Below, in pieces: positions 7,924 to 43,077 of a DNA stretch of 64,000 bases. The first letter of the stretch is position 1. Each line of letters begins with the position of its first letter. The position numbers and the translations under genes are program-made. The notes under the pieces are model-generated. The model made no database searches and was not told the origin of the DNA. It was given only the letters and a program-made list of their open reading frames with translations. Location of the stretch: positions 1 to 64,000 of the forward strand of contig JAOTOL010000435.1 in NCBI GenBank assembly GCA_034440575.1, in the 5' to 3' direction. The stretch is from Imbricaverruca yamaguchii (Eukaryota; Arthropoda; Thecostraca; Neoverrucidae).

Positions 7924-8069
7924 CCAGGGGTTCATGGCAAGAAAGGGTGGAACACTCTCGGTCTGTCTCCTACAAGACTAGAAGAACGGAAGCCTTCGGC
8001 TGCCTTGCAAGAAGCACACAAGTCACCTCACCAACGTCAAGGTGGCGTTCTAAGTCTAAGTGTTCAAGG

Positions 8070-11800: not shown

Positions 11801-11929
11801 GGACACCCTCCTCCCAAAATCACTACTTCGCAGAGCCAACCTCCTTCTGTGGTGTGCCACTCTTTGGGCCAAAAGAATGGGCATAATGTGCTGCTGATGG
11901 TGGCCACCAGCATCTTCCAGCTCCCTCAT

Positions 11930-14094
11930 GGATGGGAAGAAGAATTCTCCAATTTAAATGCCTGTGAAATGTGGGAAAAGTTCAAATCTTACTTAAAGGA
12001 AACTCAGATTAGACATGTCCCCCAAAAGCAAAGACGCAAAAGAAGGGTAGGAAAGCCAGCATGGCTTACACCAGACGTGATAAAAGCAATTAGGGCTAAG
12101 AAAACTGCATTTAGAGTTTTTAAAGAAGCCTCAAATGTCATTAATCTAAAGGCGTATCGAAAAGCTAGAGACACTGTGAAGCAAAAAACCAGAGCAGCAA
12201 AGCGAGCAAAGGAACTGGATTTAGCTAGAAACTGTAATGGGGACAGTAAAAAGTTCTTTAGTTTCTACAAGCTGAGTAAAGTTTCTAACACAATTGGTCC
12301 ACTGGAAGTAAACGGGACTACATTGGGTGAGGATAGTGAGATGGTTGAGGAGCTGAGCAAGCAGTTCAAATCAGTGTTTACATTGGAAGATATGACCAAT
12401 CTGCCGACCGTACACCATAGTTCAGATACATGGGATCTGACAAATGATGTTGATTTCATTGGTAGTGATGTTGTTTACAATCATATCAGGAAAATAAAGC
12501 CAAATAAGGCAGCAGGACCTGATGATATTTATGCTAGGGTGTTGCGGGAAACTGAAAAGGAACTGGCATTTCCACTTAGTATAATATTTTGTAGATCAGT
12601 TTCACATAATGAAATTCCAACCGATTGGAAAAGGGCAAATGTAGTTCCTATTTTCAAGAAAGGAGAAAGAGGGAAAGTTGAAAACTATAGGCCAATAAGT
12701 CTCACATCCCTAGTCTGCAAGGTACTCGAATCAATTATCAAGGATAGAATAGTTAGTTATCTGGAAGGTAGCAGATTGATTCAAGATACTCAACATGGAT
12801 TTAGAAAAGGACGATCGTGTCTCACAAACCTCTTGGACTTTTTGAACTTCGCCACAGAACAATTTGATCAGGGAAATCAGGTTGATGTAGCATATCTTGA
12901 CTTTAGTAAGGCCTTTGACAAGGTACCCCATAAACGGTTAATGATACAGCTTCAGTCCCATGGTATTGCAGGTAGCATCTTAAAATGGATAGAGTTGTGG
13001 CTTTCAGATAGACAGCAAAGAGTGATGCTAAATGGTACAAAGTCATCATGGCAAAATGTTCTTAGTGGAGTCCCCCAGGGGTCAGTACTAGGGCCATTAC
13101 TGTTCATTATATTTGTAAATAACATTGAAAGTGGCCTAAGCAGTAAAGTTTTGAAATTTGCAGATGATTTGAAGGTCTTTAGGGCAATAACAGGTCAGGA
13201 TGAGCATATCTCGCTGCAAAAAGACTTAGACGAACTTGTGAAGTGGTCCGAAGAATGGCAAATGAAATTTAACTTTGATAAGTGCAAAATCATGCATGTA
13301 GGTAAGCAGCATATGAAGGCTCCATACTTGATGGGTGGCCAAGTGCTATCAGTGACTCAACAGGAGAAGGATTTAGGTGTTATTCTAAACACAAAATTGG
13401 GGGCATCAGAACAGACCAAGGAAGCCAGGAAGAAGGCACTGAGAATGCTCAGGGCAATAAATAGGAATGTATCATACAGAAGTGAGGAAGTGATCAGGAA
13501 GCTTTACTGTGCATACGTCAGGCCACATTTGGAATACTGCATCCAAGCTTGGTCTAGCTATGAAAAAGATTGTTGGCTTTTAGAGAGAGTACAAAAGAGG
13601 GCTACAAAAATGGTTAATGGCATAAGCAACCTGGCATATGAGGAAAGATTGAAGAAATTGAATATGTTTTCACTTAGATATAGAAGGCTGAGAGGAGATC
13701 TCATCGAGGTCTTTAAATTTGTCAATGGTCTGGAGAGGGGATACCTTGGGAAATGTTTGAATTTAACAGAAATGATGCAATTAGAGGTCATAAATTCAAA
13801 ATTAAAATTAACCACAGCAGAACAAGGTTAAGGCAAACTTTCTTCACCAACAGGGTAGTGGAACACTGGAACCAGCTGCCAGAAAACATCGTCAGTAGCA
13901 GAACATTGAACATCTTTAAAAACAGCATAGACAATCATTATAAGAATAGAGGGCTTGCTTTTCAGTATTACAGGGAGGGCTGATTGGCAGATTTGGTGGG
14001 CAACTGGTTCAGTGTACAGAGTGCAACCAAGAAGGGCCCTTGTGGCTCAGAGTTGCACTGATCTTTTATGTCTTTATGTCTTTATGTCATGTGG
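11930..14094 (+). mobile_element. CR1-type LINE, family 1, 5'-truncated
   Basis: The CR1 sequence begins near 11930, after Harbinger sequence, lacks the endonuclease domain and runs to a 3' octamer tail (TTTATGTC units) near 14070-14094. It is the most complete of four family-1 copies; the others are at 5680-7923, 14477-15149 and 35311-36041, all reverse strand. 5' truncation is the usual outcome of target-primed reverse transcription. Confidence 0.9.
11936..13983 (+). pseudogene. CR1 ORF2 reverse transcriptase, one frameshift
   Basis: This is an RNA-dependent DNA polymerase of the CR1 clade that would copy element RNA at a nicked target. After a basic linker (KAYRKARDTVKQKTRAAKRA) come the RT blocks: IKPNKAAGPDDIYARVL, VPIFKKGERGKVENYRPISL, TQHGFRKGRSCLTNLL, VAYLDFSKAFDKVPH, SGVPQGSVLGPLLFIIFVNN and the catalytic FADD of KFADDLKVF. 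The conserved C-terminal region (RPHLEYCIQAW, LERVQKRATKMVNGISNLAY) follows. A one-base loss in a G-run near 13750 moves the last 75 codons (frame 13753-13983, ending NRGLAFQYYREG) out of frame. The sibling copies have one more G there. The frame opens upstream at 11849, but that part is Harbinger sequence. The endonuclease domain is absent. Confidence 0.9.
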
Positions 14095-14476
14095 GCTTCA
14101 GAGCCTTTTCAACTGCTTAATTTTGATGTGGATGACCAAAAGAATGAACAAACAACAAACAACACATGAACATCTCAATGGGATCCATGATTCACTATCT
14201 TTCTGTGGAAGAAAAACATATGGGTAAATATAACCAACAAATCATCATGGATAAATAAAACAGATGATGGCAGACCTTGGGCACCACAACGTGTTCCCTA
14301 TCACAGCCACAGTCAAATGGATTTGATATGCTTTAAACAAATCATGATTCACATTTGTTTTCTTCAGGATGGATAATGGTATATGTTTCTTAGAAATGAA
14401 GAGGAAACAGGTGGCAATAGATAGACTGATGCATCAGTATCTAGCTCATCAGGTGATGAGTAATACCTGTATAAGA

Positions 14477-15149
14477 CATAAAGACATAAAGACATAAAAG
14501 ATTGGTGCAACTATGAGCTACAAGGGCCCTTCTTGGTTGCACTCTGTACACTGAACCAGTTGCCCACCAAATCTGTCAATCAGCCCTCCCTGTAATGCTG
14601 AAAAGCAAGCCCTCTATTCTTATAATGATTGTCTATGCTGTTTTTAAAGATGTTCAATGTGCTGCTACTGATGATGTTTTCTGGCAGCTGGTTCCAGTGT
14701 TCTACTACCCTGTTGGTGAAGAAAGTTTGCCTTAGCCTTGTTCTGCTGTGGTTAATTTTAATTTTGAATTTATGACCTATAAAAGCATCATTTCTGTTAA
14801 ATTCAAACATTTCCCCAAGGTATGCCCTCTCCAGACCATGGACAAATTTAAAGACCTTGATGAGATCTCCTCTCAGCCTTCTATATCTAAGTGAAAACAT
14901 ATTCAATTTCTTCAATCTTCCCTCATATGCCAGGTTGCTTATGCCATTAACCATTTTTGTAGCCCTCTTTTGTACTCTCTCTCTAAAAGCCAACAATCTT
15001 TTTCATAGCTAGGAGACCAAGCTTGGATGCAGTATTCCAAATGTGGCCTGATGTATGCACAGTAAAGCTTCCCGATTCTTTTTTCCCACTTCTGTATGAT
15101 ACATTCCTATTTATTGCCTCGAGCATTCTCAGTGCCTTCTTCCTGGCTT
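14477..15149 (-). mobile_element. CR1-type LINE fragment, family 1
   Basis: The reverse strand encodes only the last part of ORF2: RVQKRATKMVNGISNLAYEG, then GEMFEFNRNDAFIGHKFKIK and VVEHWNQLPENIISSSTLNI. A frameshift near 14985 separates the upstream piece. The 3' end carries three ATAAAGAC octamers (14477-14500). The 5' end breaks at about 15149 inside the KEARKKALRML block. Confidence 0.85.
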
Positions 15150-16234: not shown

Positions 16235-17795
16235 TGTATTCTTGTTAAGAGGGAGTTGTTACAATTGAGAAAACCGTTTGACACCAGTAGGAGTTTCAAT
16301 AATGCAAATACCACAAGAAAACGAAGGCATGGAACGATACTATACACACTTGCAACCCTAAACCAGATTTGTTGGGTTCTTGAAATACTGGTACAAAAGG
16401 TAGACACCTTTGCGCATTTGAGCATTATTGTGCACTATTTTGCCCCACATTTCCTAAATTGCGATGGGTACCAATTGACCCCTGTCTCTAAATATCATAC
16501 TAGAAAGAAAGAACAAATCATTAATCATTTAAAACAACACCCAAACATCGCAACACGTCCAAAATATGTGCATCCGAGACAAACTTGCTTGTTAGCTAGC
16601 CTGCCGCATTTCAGCCGTAAATAATGCAATCGGAGCACAAATGGCGACGTCATTTTTAAAACGTGGATTATTCGTCGTAGCAATTGTAAAGAACCAATAC
16701 CTTTCTCCTCGAAAAGGACCCCAGCAAAAACCACCAGATTTCACCAAGATCTGCAAATTTCCAAAGTTGGCAGCATCCAGGCGCTGTAAAGCTAATGAAG
16801 CCGGACATCTAGCGGAGAATATACCAACATTAGGTTCCTTTCACTGGCGCCACTAGGCAGAGTCCAGAAGAACGTAAGACCTCCGTACGGACGAAAATCG
16901 CCTGCCATGGCCCGGCGTCGTCAGCTGATATTTGAGGTTATGATACACTTGAGGTTGCGATACATTTGAGGTTATGATACACTTGAGGTTACGACACATT
17001 AGAGGATATGACACATTAGAGGTTATGATACATTTGAGGTTATGATACACTTGAGTTTATGATACATTTGAGGTTACGATACATTTGATGTTATGACACA
17101 TTAGAGGTTACGACACATTAGGGGTTATGATACACTTGAGGTTATGATACATTTGAGGTTACGATACATTAGAGCTATTCAAATTTGGGGTTATGATACA
17201 TTAGGGGTTATGATACATTTGAGGTCTTGATACATCCCCGTATGATAACCTCAAACGTATCATAACCCCACTAGGGGGAAGTAATCGTCATGACATCCCA
17301 ATGGCGGAGTCAGACCATATTAGTTACCTTATTCTTTAAGCTTTTAAACTGGATATTGGACCAATTTAATATGTGAATAAAGAAATAAGAGGATGCTCAG
17401 TAACATAGTACGGCAAGTTTTTCGAATAGCAAAAACTTGTTTATGCACACACCATGAAAATATACACCTACTTCCGCTCCTGGGAGTCACTAGTCGGAAA
17501 ACTGGAAGTCAGACCACATAAGCCTCACATGTTCAGAGACGGTGTCATTTGGTACCCCTCGCAATTTAAGAAATGTGGGGCAAAATAGTGCGAAATAATA
17601 CCCAAATGCACAAAGGTTTCTACCTTTTGTACCAGTATTTCAATAAAAAAAACATGGTTTAGGGTTTCTAGTGTGTGTGTATCGTTCCACGCCTTCGTTA
17701 TCTTGTGGTATTTGCATTATTAAAACTCCTACTGGTGTCGAACTGGGTTTTCGGAATTGCAACAGCTCCCCTCTGAACAAGAATAAGGCCTTGGA
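16235..17795. mobile_element. Inverted-repeat (foldback-like) element with internal minisatellite
   Basis: 16235-16500 is repeated in inverted orientation at 17515-17795. Shared blocks are AGGGAGTTGTTACAATT / AGGGGAGCTGTTGCAATT, GACACCAGTAGGAGTTT, ATAATGCAAATACCACAAGA, AATACTGGTACAAAAGGT and GCACTATTTTGCCCCACATT. The loop holds the minisatellite at 16925-17265. A further copy of the arm stands alone at 30585-30765. No coding sequence and no clear target duplication, so the class is open. Confidence 0.65.
16925..17265. repeat. Minisatellite, 16-17 bp unit GAGGTTATGATACATTT, array 1
   Basis: About 20 units of GAGGTTATGATACATTT/ACTT with small variants. The same unit forms a second array at 34795-35062. 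Both arrays are preceded by related sequence containing CAAAATCGC and CGTCAGCT, so the array and its flank appear to move or duplicate together. Confidence 0.9.
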
Positions 17796-18065
17796 ATTGT
17801 ATTACTTTCGCGACCCTTGCGACCGCTGGTACAACAGCCGTGAGAACCGTAGTGATTGAAATAATTATGACGTCACCTTACTGGGCGCTGACTATCCTGC
17901 TGCGAACACGAGCAAGACAGAATATACGCGATGTGGACTGCGAAAACACCTAAACCCAGTCTGTCTCAGGTGCGCCGTGATTGACATTGTCTTTACCAGA
18001 CTAGCGCTCCCAATATGAAAATCATTAAATTCAACTCCGCGCTGTTCGGCATTCTAGCGGGGTCG

Positions 18066-19040
18066 AACGCAGGATATCTCCCTTATATCTTCAACCTGTA
18101 GATTTCAAGGAATATACCCAGTTCGCTAAGCAATAGCAAAGTTATTGTGACAGCTATCTAGCCTAGGGCTGGAGTCTCCTCTGAGTGGAACTCTAGGGCA
18201 CTGGCAGCCAGTGCCAGGGTAGGTAAGCTCTGCAATTAGTTAGGTTTGCCATTGGTTGACAAGTGGTGCAGGTATTATCGCTCATTGGACCTGTATCAGA
18301 GGGTTGGCCTGCACTTCTCTGAGAATTGGGGTATTCTTTTACTTTCTGCCATAACGTTGCTTGCACTAGATATGTAGCCGATTGTACCTCTACCTCTGAC
18401 AGTATAGGAGGTAGCAATTTATAGTGAATAATAGTCGGCTAATTTTTAATGAATGAATTTTTGTCGGTTGTTTAACGAGTTAATTTCAATATAAATCTAG
18501 GTTGGTTTCTACCAGGATGCAGGCACTAGAGGAAGAGATTAGGGCCCTTAGGGCAGAGCTTGCCAAGCTCAAGGCTGCCCTTGTTGCACAGGGCAGGCAA
18601 GATAAGGTAGCAAGGGGTCACTCCACAGCAGGGACATCATGTGCCCAGGTGGTCGCTGGCCACCAGGTAGCTGAGGCTTCCCCTACTGTGGAGGTGGCTG
18701 GGATTTCTCTAGAGGAGAGTGTTAATATCTAACAGAGGAGGGGTAGTTCTGGTAGGTCACAGGAGGGGAAGTGGCATGAGGTCAGGGGTTGGAGGATTCG
18801 GAGACGCGAGCCTAAGGAAAGGCTCAGTGAGTGGCAGGTGGCAGGTGGTAGGAGTGGGAGGAAGCCTAGTCAAACTGCTCCACAAGCATGCATAGCAATA
18901 TCGAATAGATTCCAGGAACTATTTTGCGCCCAGGATAGTAATAGTGAGGATACGGTACTGGTCTTAGGTGATTCTCGTGTGCGACATTTAGATCGGGTAT
19001 TTTGTAAAGGTAGATTGGAAAACAAGTATGTCATATTTTG
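18066..19040 (+). mobile_element. CR1-type LINE 5' part, family 3, copy A
   Basis: Matches the complement of 29649-30535 over the 5' UTR and ORF1 start, for example CCTAGGGCTGGAGTCTCCTC, TACCTCTGACAGTATAGGAG and the ORF1 start codon region. The copy continues past the site where the hAT element interrupts copy B and reaches GDSRVRHLDRVFC. It stops at about 19030 next to a piggyBac-like end. Confidence 0.8.
18502..19040 (+). pseudogene. CR1 ORF1 (coiled coil plus SGNH esterase start), stop and truncation
   Basis: ORF1 of CR1-like elements is an RNA-binding or esterase-type protein. The frame starts MVSTRMQALEEEIRALRAEL, a leucine-rich coiled coil, then a low-complexity linker. A TAA at 18730-18732 replaces the GAA seen in copy B (VNIEQRRG), an in-frame nonsense change. 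Beyond it the frame reopens to DTVLVLGDSRVRHLDRVFC, where GDSR is the block I nucleophile motif of SGNH hydrolases. The rest of the domain is lost. Confidence 0.8.
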
Positions 19041-21214: not shown

Positions 21215-21474
21215 TACTCCACTACACTGTCCAGAAGGGCCCTATATTCCTGTAGCAGCTCCTCACTCCTAGCAGGACTTATGTTATTCACCCCTACCTG
21301 TACTAGAACTGTATTAAACTGGTGATCACTGGTGGCCTGTGCCACCACTGGCACCAGGTTCTCAACATTGGCACCAGACCTGGTGATGCTCCTCTTGTCC
21401 CTCCTACCTTTACAAAATACCCGATCTCAATGTCGCACACGAGAATCACCTAAGACCAGTACCGTATCCTCACT
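21215..21474 (-). pseudogene. CR1 ORF1 SGNH domain, family 3 copy B, 3' piece
   Basis: The reverse strand encodes the esterase segment that follows the hAT insertion point. It begins ACGGTACTGGTCTTAGG (VLVLGDSRVR) and continues to a stretch with ANVENLVPVVAQAT, VLVQVGVNNIS and EELLQEYRALLDS. GDSR and GVNN are SGNH blocks I and III. It joins 29649-30097 across the transposon: removing 21475-29648 plus one copy of TCCTCACT restores the order seen in copy A at 18900-18980. Confidence 0.8.
21467..21474. repeat. 8-bp target duplication (left) of the hAT transposon
   Basis: TCCTCACT, repeated at 29649-29656. In the uninterrupted CR1 copy A the complement AGTGAGGA occurs once (18947-18954). Confidence 0.9.
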
Positions 21475-22191
21475 CAGAGGCGAAAAAAGCCGGCGACACG
21501 CCGACGCATGCCGGTGACAGCTAAAGGGACACGGAAGATTAGTGAGACAGCCAAAGTCTGACATGTCTTTTTCTTTCCGAGCTTGAAAAAACGTATTTTT
21601 AACGTAATTTTTTAGAACGAATCGTATCAGTCCATTCTTTGGCTAGTTTACATTAGAAGACGGCACATTTTATATATAGTGGTGGCGTCCTTATGAGACA
21701 GCTGCTGGCTGAAAAAAAGCTGCAGTCCGAGCGGCGGCCTGTACTAAATCCTCATAGAGGTCGTCACGATGTCGGTGAGTCAGCCGATAGCTGTCTCATG
21801 CGGGACATTTGTGGCGCGCTTAAACTTGCTGAACGAAGGAAAATCGGGTCCTGGTAAATGACATCATGAAAGTTAAGGGCATCTGCCTGCTCTTAATTAA
21901 CGCAATAATTCGTGAAACAAAAAAGCAAATCAACACGAAGACATTTGTTTCAAGCAAATCACAACAGGTACCCAAAATATTGTCACTTCCTTTTATAGAT
22001 CCGCGGGTACGTATATAGTTTTCTGTGATGTCATTTGGAGAATGGAAAATGGAGAATTGGAGAATGGAGATACTTGATGGCTTGAATGGTTTGCCATGAT
22101 CTTTGTCCACCGTTTGGTTCGTTCGTCAGGCCTCTGTGCGAATAGTGGCAGTTCTGCGCTCTTTTTTTGCCCTTGTAGAGTAGCTGGAACC

Positions 22192-22414
22192 ATGGGGAAG
22201 TCGACGCCTTCTACACCATCAAGGAAGAAGGTGACTTGCGGCTATGAAAGCTGTAGTTATGAAGGAGAAATGCGCAACATGAAGAGGCACAATAAGTTGA
22301 GGCACGGAGGTGGGCCGTTGCGAGTAAAAAATATGTCATTCGGTGTAGGAGGAAAGTGGGAACGATGGTGTAGACCGGTGCCGAATGACGATGTCAACGA
22401 ATCATCAGGAGCAG
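22192..22414 (+). CDS. hAT gene exon 1 (N-terminal zinc finger)
   Basis: Encodes MGKSTPSTPSRKKVTCGYES and the finger Cys16, Cys21, His33, His38. Donor GCAG|GTAATT. It ends in phase 1. The frame is open upstream to another ATG at 22096. Confidence 0.75.
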
Positions 22415-25400
22415 GTAATTAATGCTTTTTTGTGTGTGTGGTGATTCACTGGACAATTCTATGCAGGCGAGGAATTTATTTTCTTGTGCTGGCTGTGCCT
22501 GCTGACCAGGTTTATGTACCCAGGTAGCCAGCCGATATCACCAAGCGGTGGCAGGCTGGCAAAACTCACACACACACACGTAGGTAGGTAGGTAGGTAGG
22601 TAGGTAGGACCTACCCGCCTAACACAGGGCTCTGTTTGTGCTTTGTAATCCTAAATATGGACAAGTATGGGCGCAATATGACCAGAGCAGTCAAAGCGCT
22701 CGAAAGCCCAAATAACTAACTAACTAAATATGGACAAGAAGTTGTGGGGTAAAGCAATATGGAGAGGATGCTTTTCTTCCAGCCTGAAACATCTGAATCT
22801 GCTTGCACTGCCAATGAGTCAAGGATTTTGTTGCAGAGCTGTTAATTGTCAAGCAATACCACTCAACCCAAGATAAGAAGAATGAGATGATAATTAAGTG
22901 GGGGATGATGTTCTAGGTGCAAAAATTAATATAGCAATAGTCAATGTCTAATTCTGTATCATGTCCACATTTTCAGCATACAAAGTAATGTCCACATTTT
23001 CAGTCAGCATTCCTGCTAACAGCATGCAAAGTAATGCTTTAAAAATACAAATTAAACTTAGTCTGTCCTCCCCTTGAAGAAAAACAAAACAAAAGGGAAA
23101 CTGGAAATATTCAATGGTATTATTGCATTTTAAGGTAGCCAGAAGACAAGTTTTACACACATTTTACTTCATGAACATATCAAGGTGTTAGGTGATGCTC
23201 TAGTTGAAATATTTTTGGATTTTAGTGATTCTTTAAAATACAATTCATGTAATTTCTTTTCTTGAAGTGGAGGTGAGGCTATGTTAGGCTTGGTTACTTC
23301 TTTTCTGTATTATTTGTGTGATTTTGTGAGTACCACCACAACTAGTCCAGGAATCGTTGTCATCAGGCAATGGTCAGCATATTTTAGACAAAATGTTATG
23401 CTGAGCATTTTGTAACTACATGCCAGTATGGAGAAAAAACAAGGTATACAATAATGCAACAATATGGTAACCTTGCTTTGAGACTGGTACAATGTTGTAG
23501 TGATTTTGTTGCACCATGAAAAAGAGCTGATGCATATGTATGTAATACGGAGCTGATTTGAACTCAATTTTATACTTGCATCAAGCATGTACTGACTGAC
23601 ATAATATCAGTGCTGACTTCTCTCTTACAATGAATATGTACAGGATGACATTGACTGTTCCCAACCTGTCAAAATAGTTTTTACAATAATGTATTCAAGA
23701 AGATGATACATTTCCTTGCTCATTTGAGAGGAATCCATGGCTCATTCTGCTCTGTTGCATATCTCATTGAAACCACATATTTTCGGACTACTCCACCTGG
23801 GGACACATCCATGCCTTCATTAGGTCCTGAATCATTTTTCTTTCAACCATCACTTCTCAAGACTGAAAAGTCAATAAGAATCACGCATTTGCAACCTGTT
23901 TTGGGGAATGGCCCAATTGTGCATCCAGTTTCCTTTTGTTAACATCTGTCTCAAACTGCCTGGGCTTCACCAATTCCATTTCCCATGGAATTTCCAATTT
24001 ATTCAATGAATGATGCAAATTCCCATGGAAATGCACTGATTTGTATCCCATTTAAAGTACACATATGAGTTATTTTTAATAGCACGCTCTTGAACTATAT
24101 GTATGGTGGAATACATTACAGGTTATATTACATATTTGTCTGAATTTTCATGAAATTGGAACATACCAGGAAAAGGCCTACAAATGAACATTTTATTGTC
24201 ATAAATAGCTTTAAAAATAGTGCCAAGGTTTCACTCATATCACAGGACCAAGCATTCATTTCGATCCTTACCATGTTCTGTTAACTATGGTATTTGACAG
24301 AAAAAGAGGATGTGGTGTGATTCATCGCTATCATTGTGGGTTACAGTGCTCATTATCTCCTGCAGATTCAGCCATGGAATGCATGGGCTCTAAGGCTGAG
24401 GAAGCACCTGATGTGGATTATCCAGCCATGGATGCTGCTGATGCCCAACTTGAGGAACCAGTCCAGAAAGCATGTGCGAATGCTGGATTAAATAAGACTA
24501 CTAGTCAACAAGGAACTGCTTGCGGAGGTAATTCATATTTAGTAATTTAGGATCATATAAATATGTTATGCATTTGCAGCACTCTTTGCCACTGGACATG
24601 CACATTCATCAGGTATGAGCCCATGTATTTAAAAACTTGTTTTTATGTGTGTGTGTGGGGGGGGGGGGTCATTTTGTGGATAATTAAAAAACAAAACAAA
24701 ATATTCAGAGTCAGAAAAGGGAGGCTGTGGATCATGTCCATAACATTTCTGTCCATAAGAATCAAATGTTTAAAAATTATCCTTTTTAGTTTTCTATAAA
24801 AAATGTTTAATGAATTGAGCGGACTGCAGCGTGTTCTTTGCAGTCAGCGTGTTCTAAACATTGCGTGTTGGGGCCGAGCGGTGAACCCGCCGTGGTGCAT
24901 ATCAGCCACTGGGCATGATAAGGGCGCTCCGAGAGCACCCATAAGGCACTCCGAGGGTGCTTCAGGGAATTTCGAGGGCGCCGTTAAGGCATCACGATGC
25001 TTCATGGTGTGGTGTGGGAGTTCCTTACTCAAGGTTACTTTGGTCAGGTTTGGGTAGGAGCAATATTAGTGAAATTGCGAAGTAATAAAAATAATAATTT
25101 TCGTAGTCGATTTTCCCTACCATACTTGCCCAACATGCAAGCTAGCAACGTTATTGTCTTAAGTATCTATAATTCGAAGATCCATACTGATAATGCGTCC
25201 TATAATCCTTCCACGTACAAATGTGGCACCAGGTGTTCAAAATGGCATTACGAATGTGACGTAACCAGTAACCAGGATGTCGCTGGTGTAAGCCGACATT
25301 TAACACTGGAGTAAACATTGGGCTGCATCACACGTCACTTGATTCATGTTCCGTTCATTTATGTGCCACTCGGGCATGAACAAAAAGTGAGATGTGGTTG

Positions 25401-28400
25401 CCATTTAGCTTTAAAAAAAAAGAATATGCGGGAGTTTGTGCCACCTATGGCATCACATCTATGTAAACGCCAGTTAACCACACCACAAATTATTAATATA
25501 TCATGTTTCTATTTCAGTGTCGTCGTCCGTTGAACCAAGCTGCGCTTTGGAAACGAGGGTATCGGCGTTAGAGAGGGACACCACCAGAATGTTTCGACTG
25601 ATGGGAAGTGCAGGTGCGGTGGCCTCGACCAATCCTCAGCTACCTAGCAACGTCGACGCCGCCATCAGATCTGCCAGAGGCGTCGATGATCTGCTTGCAG
25701 CCTGTGGAGGCCTCTTAAAGACGGCTGAGACGACGGATGGCTTTTATTGCTCTGTGTGTACGAAGGACGCATCGGGCACCCAACAAAGCCTTGCAGGTGT
25801 GTTCTCGTACAACTTCAGCAAAGTCACTGCTTTCACATACGCCGAGCATTTGCCACTGCCTTTCAGAAGGCTGAAGGACACCGTGAAGAGGCACTTCGAC
25901 AGCGAGCGACATGTCCGAGCTCGGAAAGCGTCCGAGGAGAAGTCTCGACAGGCCTCAGCTCGAGAAAAGGAAGCCGGAAGTGTCGCCATGCGAGTGCTGA
26001 GGACGGCATATTATGTCTTGAAAAAGTCGTTGTCACATACCGTGTTCGAAGACCTCATCGTCCTCCAACATATTAATGGAGTGAATGTGGGTGATATTAA
26101 TCACTCAAAAATGTTCATGATGCAAGTGCGAGAGCAGTTCACAGCGGAAATCATTCGAAAGCTCGCTGATCACGTCAGAAGCCAGCCGTGTGTCGCACTG
26201 ATGGCTGACAAACTTACAATCAACCACAGGACGATCGACATCACTGCCATTACGACGATCGTGCCCGATGCTCCCGTAGGGCAAATGCTACAAAGCTTCG
26301 TGGTTGGGGCGCCCGTAGTCAAGGACCACGACGGCGACGGGCATGCTCGGCAGCTGCGAGCTACCTTAGCCGGAATCGGCATCGCATGCACCGAGCAGCT
26401 GTCTGCAATTGCAGCAGATGGCCAGGTGCACCACAATGGTGTGCCAGGCAAGCTGTTCAGGATGATGAACCGTGAAAATGAAAACCGGCCGCCGTCTGCT
26501 GCTTGCGTGTCGTGTGTGTGGGACGGTTCGCACCTGGTCAATTTGGCCGACGGGGACGCCCGCCGCGACTCGACGTGCCGCTGGGTGGATGCCACCATCG
26601 CTATCGTGACCCGTGCCACCAAACGCTTCTCCCATGGCAGTGGTCTAGAAAGTCTGTTGGAGGCTGGAACACAGCTTCGGCACCGCGTGCTCAGGCCAAA
26701 GCTGTGGTCCGAAACGCGCTTCGCCCCCCACGCGGCGGATGTCCTGAGCACGTTTCAAACCAACATCCCAGCGATGACGCGCGTGCTGCAGGGGCGCATC
26801 GCCACGGAGCAGAGAGGCGGCGTCCGCAACGAACTGGAAGCCGACTTGAGAGCGCTGAAAGGTTAGTTAAGTTTGATTGTTTGCCTGATAATAGTAATAT
26901 TTCCCATTTTTCCATACATGATATAGAAATTCGCGGTGTGAACCCTGCGCGGCACGCATCACTGTATTGTTTTCGCTGGAGTCATGTTCACCTGCGGAAT
27001 CGTGGACTTAAAATGTGAGACCTCAAAGCCCTTTAAACAACCAAACGTGGGATAATTGAGCTCATCACGATATAATAACAATGCTCGTCAACTAAGGGGC
27101 ATCTTCCCCATCCCTTGAATCCTCGTATGTTTTCGTTATAGGAGTCCTTTCTATTCTTCACTATATAAGCAGTTGAAATAAACAGTGTTTTGTGCACTCA
27201 CAGATCGAGACTTCCTAGCACGGGTAGCTGTCTTAATCGACGTGTACAAGGTGCTGGCCAGTGGAAGCCGAATACAGCAGCAGGTGCAGAACCTACCGTG
27301 GCAGTACGTGGCCGGCTTCGGACACACCATCTGCACCATCCGTGAAATGGCTGATATTCTGGATGTCCCCACCCGCGGCGACGTCTCCGTGGCAGACATG
27401 ATTGAGTTGGCCGATATGGATACCAGATGGCCAACTCTGTCGAGCTTCTCGCCGTGCGACAAAGCAGTGGTGAGCAGCGCTATTTTACCCTTAAGAGTTC
27501 TCCTTGAAATATACCTATTTACGTTTATCCGGAGTATTTCTAGCATTCATATTGCGCTTATCCAACATATAAAAGCCAGTATTGAGCCCACATCGTCGCC
27601 CACTTGGGCATTCAGTCGTCTCGCATCCGCAATACCAATGGCCTCTATGTATGTTCTGTTCATGTTCAATCTCTGTATGCTCTGTGTGTGTTCTGTTCTG
27701 TTCATTTATTTATTTGTCATTGTAGGTTGCCTGTTTTGTTTTCAACATAAAGTAGCTCATCGATTTGCAAATAGTAAATCGCTCGCTACTACAAATTTAC
27801 TCTAGCTTAGCCTAGATGATGGGCTTGGCTTATTGATGAATGCACTTTTGAGCCATATATGTTAGTTTTCCCAAGTAAAATCACTTTGTACAATGCTGTA
27901 ACAGGTTGTGACTGCCAAGGCTAACCTTTTCCATCAACACACGCTTTTTCCGGTCTTTTCACGAACGATGCGTTCCATGTATTTGCACATGCATATCATA
28001 AGTGAGAGTACTGTGATAGATGGCTGAGTAGTTATTTTGTTCCACTATTGACCGTGGCATTTGCCTGCCAAAGCACTTCGAATTAATTTCCTTTCAAAAT
28101 ATCCAGGCCGTATTGTTTTATACTTATCGTGTACAGCTAATTCAGGCTCTGCCATTCGTTCACAGACGAAGGACGCCACAGCCTTCTGTCGTAGCTTGGC
28201 CAGGCAATTGAGGCACAGGCGAGGTGGCTTGAATGCGACCGGTTCAAGAATGGGCACAGACAACCAGAGCCTGATGGACGCCATGCTCGACATCAGGGAG
28301 GTGGCCGATGTGGAGCGCATCAGGGCCACCAGTGACGCCAGTGCCGGCACCATCCAGCGTGCTGCTAGTCGCCTGGTGGCCCGCCGCGTCATTCCGCCGT

Positions 28401-28852
28401 CGTGCCGCTTGTCCCTCGAATCCGCGACCGCAGGCTACAAGGTGTTGCACGAGCCGCGCTGCGCGAATGGGTGCAACCAGCAGCTACTCAAGGTACTGTG
28501 GAAGAGCCGCGACAGTACGCCCAGCCTTGGACCATACGTGGACTTGGTAACCCGACTGTGGCTCATCTTCCCTACTGAGAGTGTTGTAGAAAGCATGGGG
28601 AGTGCAGTGCAGGAAGTGTTCGGCATGCACCGTCAGCTCGACCACGCCAACGCGGCGAAGGAGCTGGTAGTGCGCTGGAACGGGCCGGACCCGTGCCAGG
28701 CCGATGATGTGGTCCGGGCCGTTCAGCGCAAAGCCGGGTTCAACTTTACCCGGCACTCGACAAGTCTGCGCCAGTCGCTGGCTGGCACTGTCATCACGCG
28801 CCACAAAAGCACGGCATCTGCTAAGTGCGCAATATATGCGTATAAGGAATAG
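22192..28852 (+). CDS. hAT transposase-like protein, five exons, 893 aa, intact
   Basis: Exons: 22192-22414, 24366-24527, 25518-26861, 27204-27469 and 28166-28852. All introns are GT-AG; phases are 1, 1, 1 and 0, each consistent across its junction, and the total is 2,682 nt, exactly 894 codons. Residues 16-38 form a C-x4-C-x11-H-x4-H finger behind a basic start. C206-x2-C209 with H254-x5-H260 (LKDTVKRHF then DSERH) resembles the TTF/BED-like finger before hAT domains. D359 lies in ALMADKLTI and D429 in AIAADGQVHHNGV. E807 lies in VESMGSAV, placed like the Glu of the hATC dimerisation block (E, then S four residues later). These suit the D/D/E triad of an RNase H-fold hAT enzyme. The gene sits inside the matching transposon ends, so an active transposase is more likely than a domesticated gene. 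An upstream in-frame ATG at 22096 is the alternative start. Confidence 0.85.
22560..22730 (+). repeat. Microsatellite and SINE-like tail in hAT intron 1
   Basis: An (AC)n run and (GTAG)n run at 22566-22608 precede a tail at about 22655-22730: ATGGGCGCAATATGACCAG, AGCGCTCGAAAGCCCAAATA and ACTAACTAACTAAA. The tail is the complement of the motif at 9845-9912 and 45580-45650. Confidence 0.6.
24366..24527 (+). CDS. hAT gene exon 2 (acidic linker)
   Basis: Acceptor CTCCTGCAG|ATTC, donor GGAG|GTAATT. Length 162 nt, phase 1 at both ends. It encodes an acidic, alanine-rich linker (DSAMECMGSKAEEAPDVDYP and onward). Because it is symmetric it could be skipped without a frameshift. Confidence 0.75.
24915..25000 (+). 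repeat. Short degenerate repeat in hAT intron 2
   Basis: GGCGCTCCGAGAGCACC, GGCACTCCGAGGGTGCTTC and GGGCGCCGTTAAGGC follow one another at about 28-30 bp spacing. Confidence 0.4.
25518..26861 (+). CDS. hAT gene exon 3 (second finger and first two catalytic Asp)
   Basis: Acceptor TTCTATTTCAG|TGTC, donor AAAG|GTTAGT, phases 1 and 1. Carries the CSVC finger, D359 and D429. An in-frame TAG follows directly after the donor, so splicing is required to continue. Confidence 0.85.
27204..27469 (+). CDS. hAT gene exon 4
   Basis: Acceptor GTGCACTCACAG|ATCG, donor GCAGTG|GTGAGC. Enters in phase 1 and leaves in phase 0. Encodes DRDFLARVAVLIDVYKVLAS and a helical segment ending PCDKAVV. Confidence 0.8.
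28166..28852 (+). CDS. hAT gene exon 5 (C-terminal catalytic Glu region)
   Basis: Acceptor CGTTCACAG|ACGAAG in phase 0, TAG at 28850-28852. Holds LVTRLWLIFPTESVVESMGS and GMHRQLDHANAAKELVVRWN, comparable to the hATC block in which a Glu and a following Ser lie near the end of the fold. Confidence 0.85.
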   Translation, partial: TKDATAFCRSLARQLRHRRGGLNATGSRMGTDNQSLMDAMLDIREVADVERIRATSDASAGTIQRAASRLVARRVIPPSCRLSLESATAGYKVLHEPRCANGCNQQLLKVLWKSRDSTPSLGPYVDLVTRLWLIFPTESVVESMGSAVQEVFGMHRQLDHANAAKELVVRWNGPDPCQADDVVRAVQRKAGFNFTRHSTSLRQSLAGTVITRHKSTASAKCAIYAYKE

Positions 28853-28884
28853 CACGCGCCTGTTCAGTAGAAGGAAAGTGAGAC

Positions 28885-28966
28885 CCCAGGGCGTCTGTAG
28901 CTCAGTAGGAAACTGGGTGTCTGAGAAACAAGAGGTGCTGTGTTCGGTCGATTCTCGGTGGTGTCC
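28885..28966 (+). repeat. tRNA-derived SINE head or tRNA pseudogene
   Basis: GGCGTCTGTAGCTCAGTAGG resembles a Pol III A box, and GGTCGATTCTC about 45 bp later resembles a B box. The cloverleaf is incomplete, so this is a SINE head or tRNA relic, lying 40 bp downstream of the hAT stop codon. Confidence 0.5.
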
Positions 28967-29648
28967 TCCCTTCCTGCCAAGTTGAGAGGCAAGCGATGCA
29001 ATGTGGCCCCAACTGATTAGCCACAAATAACACAAAAAGTATGACTCCACGACCTACCCTAGCTCAGGTCTTTGCCCTTAAACTCTTCTTACCTACCAAC
29101 AGCGTGCACCTGAGTGTGCGGGAAAATTCCAGTTTTACACCATTTTGAGAACGTTGGGGACGGCCGCACGAGCCCGCTCCCCGCCAACCGCTTTCTGTCG
29201 TCTTCCCATTTGCTGGATAACCAGCTCAATCTGAAGGATAATATTAAGGGAACGCTGAAGTACCTTGGCATGTCGTATCGGAATGGTCCGCTTATTAGGT
29301 CAGCTCTCTGCTGTGTCAACCAGGAAGCCTTATGACGTAGCCATGGGCGAAAGCTGCATTGTTCGAACTGATAACCAAGGTCCAAACAGCTTCTTCCTGC
29401 GGCATCCACCGGTGGCCCCCAAACATATTTCGTGCACTTAATGGTGACACAGCTCACGATTCCAAACCTAAAAAGTGTCTCTCCAATTTCTGGCTGAAAT
29501 ATGTATGAACTGCAACGAGGATCAAACATTCTTTTTCAACGCCGCGAAGCAGGTGTGCGAGGCACTTGTTTTATGAAACATATATGCAAAAAAATTGAGA
29601 CAGCTCACAGGTTCGTCGGTGACAGCTTCGGCATTTTTTTCACCCCTG

Positions 29649-30535
29649 TCCTCACTACTACTATCCTGGGCGCAAAATAGTGCCTGGAATCTATTCGATA
29701 TTGCTATGCATGCTTGTGGAGCAGTTTGACTAGGCTTCCTCCCACTCCTACCACCTGCCACCTGCCACTCACTGAGCCTTTCCTTAGGCTCGCGTCTCCG
29801 AATCCTCCACCCCCTGACCTCATGCCACTTCCCCTCCTGTGACCTACCAGAACTACCCCTCCTCTGTTCGATATTAACACTCGCCTCTAGAGAAATCCCA
29901 GCCACCTCCACAGTAGGGGAAGCCTCAGCTACCTGGTGGCCTGCGACCACCTGGGCATATGATGTCCCTGCTGCGGAGTGGCCCCTTGCTACCTTATCTT
30001 GCCTACTCTGTGCAACAAGGGCAGCCTTGAGCTTAGAAAGCTCTGCCCTAAGGGCCCTAATCTCTTCCTCTAGTGCCTGCATCCTGGTAGAAACCAACCT
30101 AGATTTAGATTGAAATTAACTCTTTAAACAACCGACAAAAAGTAATTAAAAAATAGCCGACTATTATTCACTATAAATCGCTACCTCCTATACTGTCAGA
30201 GGTAGAGGTACAATCGGCTACATATCTAGTGCAAGCAACGTTATGGCAGAAAGTAAAAGAATACCCCAATTCTCAGAGAAATGCAGGCCATCCCTCTGAT
30301 AGAGGTCCAATAAGCGGTAATACCTGCACCACTTGTCAACCAATGGCAAACCTAACTAATTGCAGAGCTTACCTACCCTGGCACTGGCTGCCAGTGCCCT
30401 AGAGTTCCACTCAGAGGAGACTCCAGCCCTAGGCTAGATAGCTGTCACAATAACTTTGCTATTGCTTAGCGAACTGGGTGTATTCCTTGGAATCTACAGG
30501 TTGAAGATATAAGGGAGATATCCTGCGTTCGACTG
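29649..30535 (-). mobile_element. CR1-type LINE 5' part, family 3, copy B
   Basis: The reverse strand carries the 5' UTR and the ORF1 start (ATG at 30097) matching copy A at 18066-18960. ORF1 is MVSTRMQALEEEIRALRAEL and continues without the nonsense codon of copy A to CAQDSSSED, where the hAT element interrupts it. The other side resumes at 21474. Confidence 0.85.
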
Positions 30536-34794: not shown

Positions 34795-35062
34795 GGGTTA
34801 TAACACATTTGAGACTATGATGCACTTGAGGTTACGATACATTTGGGGTTATGGTACACTTGAGGTTACGATACATTTGAGGTTATGATACACTTGAGGT
34901 TGCGATACATTAGAGGTTATGACACATTAGAGGTTATGATACATTTTATGTTATGATAAATTTTTTGTTATGATACATTTGAGGTTGTGATACATTTGAG
35001 GTTATGATACATGTGAGGTTATGATATATTAGAGGTTATGATACATTAGGAGTTACGATACA
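34795..35062. repeat. Minisatellite, GAGGTTATGATACATTT unit, array 2
   Basis: About 15 units of the same 16-17 bp monomer as 16925-17265. The left flank (CGGGCCAAAATCGCACGCCA then CGTCAGCT) resembles the left flank of array 1. Confidence 0.9.
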
Positions 35063-35310: not shown

Positions 35311-36041
35311 TGGTAAAGACATAAAGACATAAAAGATTAGTGCAACTATGAGCCACAAGGGCCCTTCTTGGTTACACTGTACACTGAACCAGCTGCCCAC
35401 CAAATCTGTCAATCAGCCCTCCCTGTAATACTGAAAAGCAAGCCCTTTATTCTTATAATGATTGTCTATGCTGTTTTTAAAGATGTTCAATGTGCTGCTA
35501 CTGACAATGTTTTCTGGCAGCTGGTTCCAGTGTTCTACTACCCTGTTGGTGAAGAAAGTTTGCCTTAACCTTGTTCTGCTGTGGTTAACTTTAATTTTGA
35601 ATTTATGACCCCTAATTGCATCATTTCTGTTCAATTCAAACATTTCCCCAAGGTATCCCCTCTCCAGACCATGGACAAATTTAAAGACCTCGATGAGATC
35701 TCCTCTCAGCCTTCTATATCTAAGTGAAAACATATTCAATTTCTTCAATCTTTCCTCATATGCCAGGTTGCTTATGCCATTAACCATTTTTGTAGCCCTC
35801 TTTTGTACTCTCTCTAAAAGCCAACAATTTTTTTTTCATAGCTAGGAGACCAAGCTTGGATGCAGTATTCCAAATGTGGCCTGACTTATGCACAGTAAAG
35901 CTTCCTGATCACTTCCTCATTTCTGTATGATACATTCCTATTTATTGCCCCGAGCATTCTCAGTGCCTTCTTCCTGGCTTCCTTGGTCTGTTCTGATGCC
36001 CCCAGTTTTGTGTTTAGAATAACACCTAAATCCTTCTCCTC
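35311..36041 (-). mobile_element. CR1-type LINE fragment, family 1
   Basis: The reverse-strand frame 35413-35787 gives the ORF2 C-terminus (MVNGISNLAYEERLKKLNMF, then GEMFELNRNDAIRGHKFKIK and VVEHWNQLPENIVSSSTLNI). ATAAAGAC octamers mark its 3' end at 35311-35335. A short insertion in a T-run near 35828 shifts the upstream part. It is cut at 36041 by a minisatellite. Confidence 0.85.
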
Positions 36042-38569: not shown

Positions 38570-39359
38570 CTGCAGAATATACACAAATGATTACAATCAT
38601 GCAGATTAGTGAGCTATTAAGGTTTTTGGTGCACCAACAGCTCTGGCTATATACCCAGTATTCATGATTATCACGCATTTCACTACTGCAACAGCAATGA
38701 TGCATCTAGATTCTGTAAAAATAGCCAACACACAAAAAGGAACCTGTATGCTGATGTGCAGAAAGGAACATTGAAAACAAAATTTTAGCAGAATACACCA
38801 CAATAGTCACAGCATCCTTGTGATATGTCCACTCAATGAAGCTAGCATAGATGGCATACAGTGGGAGGAGAATCAAGGAATATCTAATCATATCTCACAT
38901 ACATCTTACTTTAGGGTACATATTTAAATTGTCACAAAAAGCTTGATGCAATTGTAAAGTTGAAAATGTTTTGCTTGGTCTTTTGAATGCATCTCATAGT
39001 CACCTTTGACATGATCAGTGCCTTGTATTTTGCTAGACAAAGGTGGATTGCTTATAAACACCACCATCTTAGTCATAAAGTCATAAGTCATACAGTGTTA
39101 AGGCTTAATAAGGGCCACAAGGGCCCATCTGGGTCAAGCCTGTCTAGAAGATATTAGAAAGTACATGTTCACACCTATCAATTCCAAACCCATGCAATCC
39201 CTCCACCTGTGCCACCTCAGCCAATCTCATCAGTATGACATCACAAAGGAAGTTGCCAAATCCACTGCTAGGTACACCCCATATAGTACAACATAATACT
39301 AGCATAATGTTATACCCTATATAGCTAGTGAAAATACTCAATATCCCATGCATCACAAG

Positions 39360-42233
39360 TTAGAATTCAAAAACAACATTTTCCTGTCTAAAAAAATTAT
39401 CCACCCTACTTTTAAAGACATTCAATGAGGGACTCCCCACTGCATCAGCAGGCAGCCTATTCCATTGGTCAACAACCCTTTGACTGAAGACCTGTTGTCG
39501 TTTAACTGTCCTGCACCTCATTTTGTCTAACCTGAATTGATGACCCCTATGGGATACTCTAAACTGCAGAGCATCATTCAAATTGACCTGATCTAGCCCT
39601 CTAACAATTTTGTACATTTCAATCATGTCTCCCCTTAATCTCCTATACTTGAGTGAGTACATATCTAATGCATTAAGCCTTTCTCCATATTCTAAGTTAC
39701 TTAATCCACTGACGAGTCTAGTGGCTTTGCGCTGGACTCTTTCTAACATATCTATATCCTTTTCTAGGTAGGGGCTCCATGCTTGTACAGAGTACTCCAA
39801 GTGGGGCCGCACATATGCTAAGTACAGCTTTTTCATGACTTCCCTGCTCTTATATTTCACACTTCTATTAATGAGTCCCAGCATTCTGAGTGCCCTATTT
39901 CTAGCTGAGATACATTGTTTTTCTGCTTTAAGGTCTTTTGAGACCAACACACCTAAGTCCCTTTCCTCTTCAATAACATCCAGTTCCCTCCCTCCCATTT
40001 TATAACTGAATGTCTCGCCTGCAGACCCTATATGCATAACCTTACACTTATCATAGTTGAAAGTCATCTGCCATTGATCAGCCCACTCTTTTAGGTCGTC
40101 CAAATCTAGTTGAATATTACTAGATTGATCTCTGCTGTTAGCCACTCCTACCAGCTTGATGTCATCAGCAAATTTGAACACTCTATTCCTCAGCCCTACT
40201 TCAATGTTGTTCACAAAGATGATAAAGAGGAGGGGCCCTAGAACAGAGCCCTGTGGCACTCCACTCAGAACATCTTTCCAACCAGATTTACATCCATTCA
40301 ATACTACCCTTTGTTTCCTTCCCTGCAACCATGCTTCAATCCAATGTAGAACTTTTCCTACAATCCCATGTTGTTGTAATTGATGAATTAACCTTCCATG
40401 TGGAACTTTATCAAAAGCTTTGCTAAAGTCCAAGTACACAACATCCATCCTGCTTTCATTGTCTACTTCTTTGGTAACATACTCAATGAACTCCAATAGG
40501 TTAGTTAAACAAGACCTTTGAAATCGAAATCCATGTTGAGTATCCCTTAAAAGGTTGTGCCTATCAAGATGAATCTGAACATTCTGTTTAACCAGCTTTT
40601 CTAGTACTTTGCAAACTAATGAGGTCAAACTGACTGGCCTGTAGTTTCCTACACTCTTCCTATTTCCCTTTTTGAAAATTGGTACTACACTTGCATTTCT
40701 CCAATCTTCAGGTACTTCTGAATACTCCATAGATCGCCTGAAAATGATACCTAGGGGAGTTGCTAAAGCTTTAGCACACTCTACTAAGATCCTAGCATAT
40801 ATTTCATCTGGTCCGGAAGCTTTATTAGGTTTTATATTCTGCAACTGCTTCTCTACGGCTTCTGTAGTTATTGTAAGATCCTCCAGCATATCACCTGCCA
40901 TGGCATGGCCTACAGATGTTCCTATTGTACCAGAATTATCTTTAGTGAAGACTGATGAGAATTGCCTGCTTAGGGATTCCACAATGTCGCAATCATCAAC
41001 CACTATTTCCCCATCTACCTCCAGTGGTCCTACACTACACTTTTTAGCCTTAAATTTATAGAAGCTAAAGAATCTCTTAGCATTACCTGCTGAACATTCT
41101 CGAGCAAAGTTGATTTCAGCAAGTCTTTTAGATGCTCTAACACACCTCCTAACTTTATTTCTAGATATTCTATATGATTCTAGGTTTAACCCAGAGTTAG
41201 TATCTTTTAGTTTCTTGAATGCTTGTTTCTTTGAGTCCAGTAATTGCTTAACTTCCCTAGTCAGCCACGAAGGGTGCTTAACCCTGTTTGATCTAATTTG
41301 CCTACTGGGAATGAACCTATCCTGACCCTGAAATAGCTTATCTTTTATCATTGTCCACATTTCATAAGCATCTAAGCCATTCAATATGACTTCCCAATTA
41401 ATTTCACTTAGGAAGCTCCTGAACTCACTGTAATTCCCTTTTGTAAAATTCGGAATCAATGTTCTGTTGGTTGCTACCCTTCCAACATATAATGAGAAGC
41501 GTATAATGTTGTGATCACTATTACCAAAGGTCTCTCCGACGTTAACATTTTGCACAAAATTTTCCTCATTAGTAAGCACTAGATCTAATATTTTATTTTC
41601 CCTTGTAGGCTCGTGTATCATTTGAAAGAAGAAATTGTCCTCAAAACAAGCCATGAAACATCTTTCTGATTTGCTTACACCTATTGTTTTGTTTCCCAAT
41701 CCTGCTATGTTGAAATCCCCCAACAAAATAGTTCTCTCCTGTACTCTCCTACTTATCTCTTCCTGCATCAGCCTGTCAGTGTTTTCATTCTGGTCTGGAG
41801 GTCTATAGAATGCCCCAATCCTAAATTTTGTTCCATTCTTCAGAATTATATCTAACCACAAAGATTCTACTCCTGCACTATGTACTCCATCCTCTATGGA
41901 ATGACATTTCATTACTTGCCTAACATACAAGAGAATGCCACCTCCTATCCTTGCCTCTCTTTGATAGGCATGCATGTTGTAGCCTGTCAATTCAAATTCT
42001 TGCAAATTGTCTCCAAACATGCTTTCGTTAACCCATGCTTCTGTTATGCACACCAAATCTAGCTGTTCAGACAACATATATGCATGCAGTTCCCCAATTT
42101 TGTTCCTAACACTTCTGGCATTGACATAAAAACATGATAAATTATTCCTTCCATTGCTTGCTATGCTTCTCTCTTTATCAGCTACATCCCCCCATGTCCT
42201 GCCTAGTTTCCCTGTTTCCTGTTGAGAGCCTCC
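39360..42233 (-). CDS. CR1 ORF2: endonuclease and reverse transcriptase, intact
   Basis: The frame is open from 42233 to the TAA at 39360; the first ATG gives 905 residues from 42077. Codons upstream of that ATG encode a genuine endonuclease start (SCFYVNARSVRNKIGELHAY), so translation probably begins earlier. Endonuclease blocks are LDLVCITEAWVNE, GGGILLYVR, GAFYRPPDQNEN, TILLGDFNIAG, LDLVLTNE and GNSDHNIIRFSL. RT blocks are IKPNKASGPDEIYARILV, VPIFKKGNRKSVGNYRPVSL, VVYLDFSKAFDKVPHGRL, SGVPQGSVLGPLLFIIFVNN and the catalytic FADD of KFADDIKLV. The C-terminal CR1 region (RPHLEYSVQAW, LERVQRKATRLVSGLSNLEY) follows. No internal stop. Confidence 0.92.
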   Translation of the reverse strand, partial: GGSQQETGKLGRTWGDVADKERSIASNGRNNLSCFYVNARSVRNKIGELHAYMLSEQLDLVCITEAWVNESMFGDNLQEFELTGYNMHAYQREARIGGGILLYVRQVMKCHSIEDGVHSAGVESLWLDIILKNGTKFRIGAFYRPPDQNENTDRLMQEEISRRVQERTILLGDFNIAGLGNKTIGVSKSERCFMACFEDNFFFQMIHEPTRENKILDLVLTNEENFVQNVNVGETFGNSDHNIIRFSLYVGRVATNRTLIPNFTKGNYSEFRSFLSEINWEVILNGLDAYEMWTMIKDKLFQGQDRFIPSRQIRSNRVKHPSWLTREVKQLLDSKKQAFKKLKDTNSGLNLESYRISRNKVRRCVRASKRLAEINFARECSAGNAKRFFSFYKFKAKKCSVGPLEVDGEIVVDDCDIVESLSRQFSSVFTKDNSGTIGTSVGHAMAGDMLEDLTITTEAVEKQLQNIKPNKASGPDEIYARILVECAKALATPLGIIFRRSMEYSEVPEDWRNASVVPIFKKGNRKSVGNYRPVSLTSLVCKVLEKLVKQNVQIHLDRHNLLRDTQHGFRFQRSCLTNLLEFIEYVTKEVDNESRMDVVYLDFSKAFDKVPHGRLIHQLQQHGIVGKVLHWIEAWLQGRKQRVVLNGCKSGWKDVLSGVPQGSVLGPLLFIIFVNNIEVGLRNRVFKFADDIKLVGVANSRDQSSNIQLDLDDLKEWADQWQMTFNYDKCKVMHIGSAGETFSYKMGGRELDVIEEERDLGVLVSKDLKAEKQCISARNRALRMLGLINRSVKYKSREVMKKLYLAYVRPHLEYSVQAWSPYLEKDIDMLERVQRKATRLVSGLSNLEYGERLNALDMYSLKYRRLRGDMIEMYKIVRGLDQVNLNDALQFRVSHRGHQFRLDKMRCRTVKRQQVFSQRVVDQWNRLPADAVGSPSLNVFKSRVDNFFRQENVVFEF

Positions 42234-43077
42234 TCATACCTATTGCTGAGCAATTCCACTCCTCTCTTGCTCAGATGTAATCCATCTAAAGCAAACATCT
42301 CCGTCCTCCCCCAAAACTCCCCCACAAATCCAAGAACTGCACCCCAAGCTCCTTACAAATGTTGGCCACCCTGGTATTGAGCCCAATGGCCCTCGAATAC
42401 CACTCCATGCTTGCATGGACCATAGGGAGGATGGATGTCACCACTCCTCTTTTCCTACTTCCTGCTAAACTACCTATCAAAGCCCTATAGGCTTTCATTG
42501 TTTCCTCTGTATTATTTTTTCCTACATCGTTAACTCCAACCTGCACAATTACCGTTGCACCCTCTCCACTTCCCCTCATTACTCCCTCCAGCCTATCCCT
42601 AACATCTTTCACCTGCGCTCCCGGGTAGCAAACACGCATCCGTCTGCTGGGGTTCTTGCTACAAAATGTTCGATCCATGTACCAAACCCTGGAATCCCCT
42701 ATGACTAAAACCTCTCTCTCTCCATCTCTATCTTCAGCCATCTGGTCATCCCCACCTCCGTCCCTCTCATCATTACCTTCCCTCTCCTCCAGTGCATCAA
42801 ACCTATTTTTAATTGGGACGCCCATGTCCACCTTCCTTAGCGCCAGTCGGGTGCTATGGCGCCTTGCCACCTTCCAACTGCCACCATCCCGGACCAAGCC
42901 ATCCGAACTCCCATCAGTCCTCCGCTCGGGCACCCGAGTTGCCTGGCTGGCACCTCCCATGATGGGTCCCGCCACCAAACACTTCAAGCGCTCCACCTCC
43001 CCCGTTAACATATCTAACCTCTTACTCAAGTCCCCAATGATTCCCACACACTTACAATTCCCACAGTCTCCTTCCAT
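42203..43077 (-). pseudogene. CR1 ORF1: coiled coil and SGNH esterase, frameshifted
   Basis: Starts MEGDCGNCKCVGIIGDLSKR, a short Cys motif and coiled coil. After a charged linker comes an SGNH hydrolase: VLVIGDSRVWYMDRTFC (block I), YPGAQVKDVRDRLEG (block II), VIVQVGVNDVGK (block III). The last block, ALDGLHLSKRG with the catalytic Asp and His, lies in another frame ending at the TAG 42203-42205. The shift falls in a C-run on the + strand (42319-42323, five C; copy 2 has four). The in-frame product ends early at 42286, so copy 1 ORF1 would lack the catalytic Asp/His. Confidence 0.85.

Follow-up and report, generated by a model that had tools for sequence, protein, structure and literature searches.

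A probable hAT-superfamily transposon with an open five-exon transposase, inserted in a CR1-like sequence of Imbricaverruca yamaguchii

Hermes of Musca domestica, maize Ac, Tgf2 and the Buster-type elements are the described hAT transposons closest to the element presented here. The catalytic signature of hAT transposases has been named DDE/RW (PMC10641963), and a C-x-x-H motif has been described in Hermes and Kat1 (PMC4763223). The N-terminal BED finger of Hermes binds subterminal repeats, and the finger of Ac does likewise (PMC10368747, PMC4890040). In this study we analyzed a stretch of 64,000 nucleotides from Imbricaverruca yamaguchii (Thecostraca; Neoverrucidae; assembly GCA_034440575.1, contig JAOTOL010000435.1, positions 1 to 64,000 of the forward strand), which we call the window. 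It contains an insertion of 8,174 bp (21475-29648) that we read, with a probability of roughly 90%, as a DNA transposon of the hAT superfamily, autonomous in appearance, which reached its place in a CR1-like retroelement copy by cut and paste. We assign it to hAT because of the fold, the motif layout, the ends, the length of the target-site duplication (TSD) and the subterminal repeats. A first-pass annotation made from the letters alone had proposed a hAT transposon as well: the hAT type, the intact ends, the duplication and the open five-exon transposase have stood, while its expectation of profile similarity and its argument from the introns have not.

The ends of the insertion and the related copy without it are as follows:

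21467-21474, no strand: left TSD TCCTCACT, present as a single copy in the pre-insertion relative
21475-21488, plus strand: left terminal inverted repeat CAGAGGCGAAAAAA
29635-29648, minus strand: right terminal inverted repeat CAGGGGTGAAAAAA, in minus-strand reading
29649-29656, no strand: right TSD TCCTCACT
18062-19022, no strand: uninterrupted relative of the target in inverted orientation, holding the pre-insertion sequence

The two 8-bp copies of the TSD are identical, and the 14-bp terminal inverted repeats, both read inward, agree at 12 of 14 positions. The pattern CAG[AG]GG[CT]GAAAAA and its reverse complement occur once each in the window, and these two occurrences are the ends of the element. 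When the flanks were joined with a single TSD and compared with the reverse complement of the copy at 18.06-19.02 kb, which lies inverted relative to the target, 921 of 952 positions were identical (97%, 4 gaps). The alignment runs across the junction, and the related copy carries TCCTCACT once. Hence the target copy was already there when the element inserted. The joined flanks form a single frame of 168 amino acids on the minus strand that spans the junction and ends in VLVLGDSRVRH, followed by a stop. A Pfam scan that covered the right flank gave no match for the frame at 29525-30115, of which 124 bases are the element's right end. The flank was labelled CR1 because of the analogy with two CR1-like elements elsewhere in the window and because of the GDS motif; by this analogy the target is probably a CR1-like retroelement copy. 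The uninterrupted copy on which the first-pass annotation had relied is thus present, its name CR1 being the part that is held by analogy.

The transposase gene consists of five exons on the plus strand:

22192-22414, plus strand: exon 1, start codon and C2H2-like zinc finger (C16, C21, H33, H38); aligns with the N terminus of the homolog P0001 (LOC122375015) of the barnacle Amphibalanus amphitrite
24366-24527, plus strand: exon 2, a poorly conserved linker whose skipping would leave the frame open
25518-26861, plus strand: exon 3, second zinc finger C-x2-C ... H-x5-H, candidate catalytic D359 and D429, D464-x-x-H467 and W525-S-E-T-R-F530
27204-27469, plus strand: exon 4, part of the helical insertion domain; aligns with barnacle P0001
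28166-28852, plus strand: exon 5, C-terminal P-T-E803-S-V-V-E807-S-M (candidate catalytic Glu) and stop codon

All four introns are GT-AG, with phases 1, 1, 1 and 0, and the 2,682 nt encode 893 amino acids and a stop; the 894 codons counted in the first-pass annotation include the stop codon. Barnacle P0001 aligns across exons 1, 3, 4 and 5. The support for exon 2 consists of its open frame and its splice sites. It measures 162 nt between two phase-1 junctions, and 893 amino acids are therefore one of two possible lengths. For the exon 3 donor we made use of open reading frames (ORFs) of the exon 3 type from other contigs (P0003-P0020), read at the protein level: the residue following the exon is Gly (15) or Ser (3) in 18 of 18, which is the product of a phase-1 donor G|GT or A|GT read through and therefore supports the donor position. 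P0021, which by reading departs from the family at both ends, and P0022, which loses the family frame part-way, were left out. At the exon 5 acceptor, upstream residues were present in 28 of 67 rows, and these rows were aligned at the junction. Seven were set aside, namely P0001, P0002, P0026 and P0068 (gene models or longer) and P0028, P0058 and P0075 (initiator Met). In 18 of the 21 informative exon-5-type ORFs that were kept Gln precedes the exon, which fits a CAG acceptor in phase 0; P0040, P0070 and P0089 have another residue.

Exon 1 encodes a finger that reads C-x4-C-x11-H-x4-H. The zinc ligands of the second finger are widely conserved, with C-x2-C in 19 of 20 family rows (P0014 starts after it) and H-x5-H in 20 of 20, and an N-terminal zinc-finger DNA-binding domain of the kind found in hAT transposases can be predicted. 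D359, D429, D464-x-x-H467, W525, R529 and F530 are invariant in 21 of 21 aligned rows (P0001-P0020 and P0023; the zinc-ligand rows are the same without P0002). E803 and E807, the candidates for the catalytic Glu, are invariant in 22 of 22 (P0001, P0002, P0025, P0026, P0027-P0043 and P0068). Hallmarks of the family are D-K-x-T at the first Asp, DGQ, W-D-x-x-H-L, W-S-x-T-R-F and P-x-E-S-V-V-E-S-M around the Glu. The [C/D]-x-x-H motif used for the hAT superfamily as a whole is found after the second Asp as D464-x-x-H467. The model of P0001 predicts a Hermes-like fold, as expected of a hAT transposase, in which a DDE RNase H core carries a large helical insertion before the Glu. In fold searches with this model six Hermes entries were the best among the matches listed, well ahead of the rest.

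The ends of the element agree with hAT transposons in their 8-bp TSD, their short CAG-type terminal inverted repeats and in the presence of subterminal repeats on both sides:

21512-21522, plus strand: subterminal CGGTGACAGCT, left copy
21543-21551, plus strand: subterminal repeat TGAGACAGC, copy 1
21694-21702, plus strand: subterminal repeat TGAGACAGC, copy 2
21790-21798, minus strand: subterminal repeat TGAGACAGC, copy 3
29596-29604, plus strand: subterminal repeat TGAGACAGC, copy 4
29617-29627, plus strand: subterminal CGGTGACAGCT, right copy

There are four exact copies of TGAGACAGC in the element, three at the left end and one at the right, and none in the interior; CGGTGACAGCT has one copy near either end. 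The transposase would bind the subterminal repeats via its N-terminal zinc fingers and the element tips via its core. Excision would proceed in the manner of Hermes, through double-strand breaks that leave hairpins at the flanks (PMC4763223), and insertion at cuts staggered by 8 bp, where host repair would create the duplication. A cut-and-paste mode of the hAT type is most likely; the insertion event can be read from the sequence, and the enzymology is proposed from what is known of hAT transposases and from the fold.

Relatives of the protein were found in several searches, which scored the 7,993-7,995 candidates with the most shared words, and the numbers of matches are lower bounds. The spliced query (residues 120-893) gave at least 4 matches at E ≤ 10, the first family alignment at least 19 and the C-terminal alignment at least 64, both at E ≤ 0.1. 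Where they align, the relatives and the window query are 34-62% identical, and the homology covers the core. Those among the matches to which a source gives a name are P0001, P0002, P0026 and P0068 of Amphibalanus amphitrite, annotated as 'uncharacterised' or 'hypothetical'. Further relatives are ORFs from sources labelled ena and lgn. For the relatives of both groups the sources give no transposon name, and a Pfam domain is listed for none. Among viral contigs 46 stretches fitted a pattern, with 0 relatives. Rows were misplaced when ORFs of exon 3 and exon 5 were aligned in large mixed sets, and we used instead an alignment of 41 rows (A6), composed of 39 of 86 relatives and the window's exons 3 and 5, with the register checked by motif. 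NCBIfam gave nothing relevant for P0001 or for exons 3 and 5. The Pfam model zf-C17orf113 matched weakly in 2 of the 41 rows (best E 0.16), which may serve as a lead only; DUF1644 (E 0.033) and other single weak Pfam matches were judged to be due to chance. A literature search of partial coverage, with Repbase outside it, found no description of the family.

Several observations weigh against the hAT assignment. At E ≤ 10 the hAT, BED and hAT-dimerisation models of Pfam matched neither the protein nor five members of the family (A1) nor the 41 rows of A6, in a scan that had no known hAT as positive control and with HMMER filters that lose most matches above ~0.1. The first-pass annotation had staked its reading on hAT similarity in hidden Markov model searches, and on this point it failed. 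A PDB profile search with five family members gave a sole match, to an unrelated chain (E 1). The fold model is that of the barnacle homolog P0001, distinct from the window protein, and its residues 1-138 lie below a predicted local distance difference test (pLDDT) value of 50, so that the first finger has no model. The agreement with the six Hermes chains is modest (TMt 0.41-0.51; VIA root-mean-square deviation 6.6-7.5). At the position of the hAT R-W the family has W-S-x-T-R-F (21 of 21 rows), where R-F would correspond to R-W if the placing by motif order is right. Judged from this one site, TCCTCACT fits neither nTnnnnAn nor nnnTAnnn completely: T4 agrees with the Buster pattern and the other three specified positions do not. 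The protein has 893 amino acids, compared with 600-800 quoted for hATs, and TGAGACAGC with one mismatch allowed has 9 matches, 2 of them interior. A Pfam match is an aid to recognition rather than a defining feature of hAT elements. The kind of element is known, and its lineage is one that Pfam does not recognize and that deviates from common hAT motifs.

It might be argued that the transposase comes from an unnamed superfamily beside hAT or from one that combines an RNase H core and a helical insertion with duplications of 8 bp, the P elements being an example with duplications of this length. The silence of the Pfam hAT models would suit such an origin, and so would the fact that the P superfamily, too, has been described with a [C/D](2)H motif and with an insertion that separates strand 5 from helix 4 (PMC8230255). 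We consider this improbable: the best structural matches are the six Hermes entries, the hATs Tgf2 and Mar have ends similar to the CAGRGGYG of this element, and the conserved Cys/His spacings are C2H2- or BED-like. No P transposase was among the matches listed in the fold searches, which is no proof of absence, and no THAP match was listed by Pfam for the protein. Less probable still is a domesticated host gene, or cargo, enclosed by ends that belong to a different, surrounding element. The repeats inside intron 1 might point in this direction:

22580-22608, no strand: (GTAG)n microsatellite, 7.2 copies, in intron 1
22667-22725, no strand: 59-bp repeated piece in intron 1, with two partial matches in the window at ~45.6 kb and ~9.9 kb

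However, no conserved acidic or zinc-ligand residue has been lost, ends of the hAT type occur together with subterminal repeats and a Hermes-like enzyme, and all frames of at least 150 amino acids within the element overlap an exon of the transposase gene, which leaves no second transposase candidate of that size. Introns, which the first-pass annotation had called unusual for a mobile gene, do not speak for a host gene either, as the Ac transposase is itself encoded by five exons (PMC3260210). The microsatellite that it had placed in the introns is there, together with the 59-bp repeat. A stretch that by eye is tRNA-like and resembles a SINE (short interspersed nuclear element) lies outside the introns, between the stop codon and the element's right end (28890-29080); ARAGORN found no tRNA in it. 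Rfam gave 0 matches.

A different matter is whether the copy still moves. The perfect TSD and the open frame would suit an insertion that is recent and autonomous. The copy could also be a hAT element that has become inactive and has yet to gain a stop codon, which can coexist with the hAT assignment and which we hold to be the weaker possibility, though one to be taken seriously: openness by itself is no proof of activity, and the microsatellite and the repeated piece in intron 1 suggest some age of the lineage, whereas no damage is seen in the frame, the splice sites, the catalytic candidates, the TSD or the ends. We take the element to be a real hAT transposon, perhaps one still autonomous, from a lineage invisible to Pfam. 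A broader proposal, to which we give slightly less than even odds, is that barnacles and the organisms behind many contigs harbour a deep, unnamed hAT lineage, marked by DKxT, DGQ, WDxxHL, WSxTRF and PxESVVESM and by a conserved donor site located after the second Asp and before the Glu, that it is missed by the Pfam hAT profiles, and that the window copy is intact and may still move. Being missed by these profiles, copies of such a lineage would be annotated as uncharacterised genes.

The locus offers one intact example, with clear boundaries, of a transposase family whose nature neither Pfam nor gene annotation recognizes. Ends, subterminal repeats and gene are found together here; the element could be submitted to an excision assay and serve as the seed of a profile, and such a profile could reclassify 'uncharacterised' genes, for example those of barnacles, as transposons. 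The general view of how hAT elements work is unchanged by it.

Other repeats were noted in the window. Two CR1-like retroelements (39072-43693 and 57929-62548) are 99.6% identical over 4.6 kb and both carry a GDSL ORF1, an endonuclease and RVT_1, the copy at 39072-43693 with an open frame of 957 amino acids for endonuclease and RVT_1. A third CR1-like piece on the opposite strand (63577-64000) is 99.1% identical. These copies point to very recent CR1 activity or a duplication. An open frame of 676 amino acids at 11801-13828 contains an RVT_1 reverse transcriptase domain (E 1.1e-37), and segments of this frame and of its 3' side are found again in the window, e.g. at 5675-6818, 14475-15149 and 35314-36040. 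A 17-bp minisatellite unit, ATTTGAGGTTATGATAC, forms two arrays ~17.5 kb apart (16930-17235 and 34796-35062). At 56136-56789 there are ~22 copies of a 29-bp unit, with frames of at least 150 amino acids over the array on both strands.

Compared with known systems, the element resembles Tgf2 and the Buster-type hATs (Mar, TcBuster) in its DNA ends, which read CAGAGGTGTAAAAG for Tgf2 and CAG(G/A)GGTAGGC for Mar; TCCTCACT has the T of the Buster pattern nnnTAnnn without its A. The ends of Ac start with CAGGG, like those of the window element. Ac shares with it a five-exon transposase and subterminal repeats, which in Ac are hexamers with another motif, and differs in its 807 amino acids and its element length of 4,565 bp (PMC3260210); the two are set side by side by description. 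To Hermes the element is similar in its 8-bp TSD, its subterminal repeats and its N-terminal zinc finger, and unlike the 612 amino acids of Hermes the window protein has 893, with two predicted fingers (PMC10368747). It has D-x-x-H where Hermes has C-x-x-H (PMC4763223) and, by motif order, R-F in place of R-W. The TSD departs from nTnnnnAn, and identity in structural alignments of Hermes with the P0001 model is 10-12%. The two Asp of Hermes are ~70 residues apart, similar to those of the window protein. The core and the helical insertion domain predicted from the P0001 model would share the fold of Hermes.
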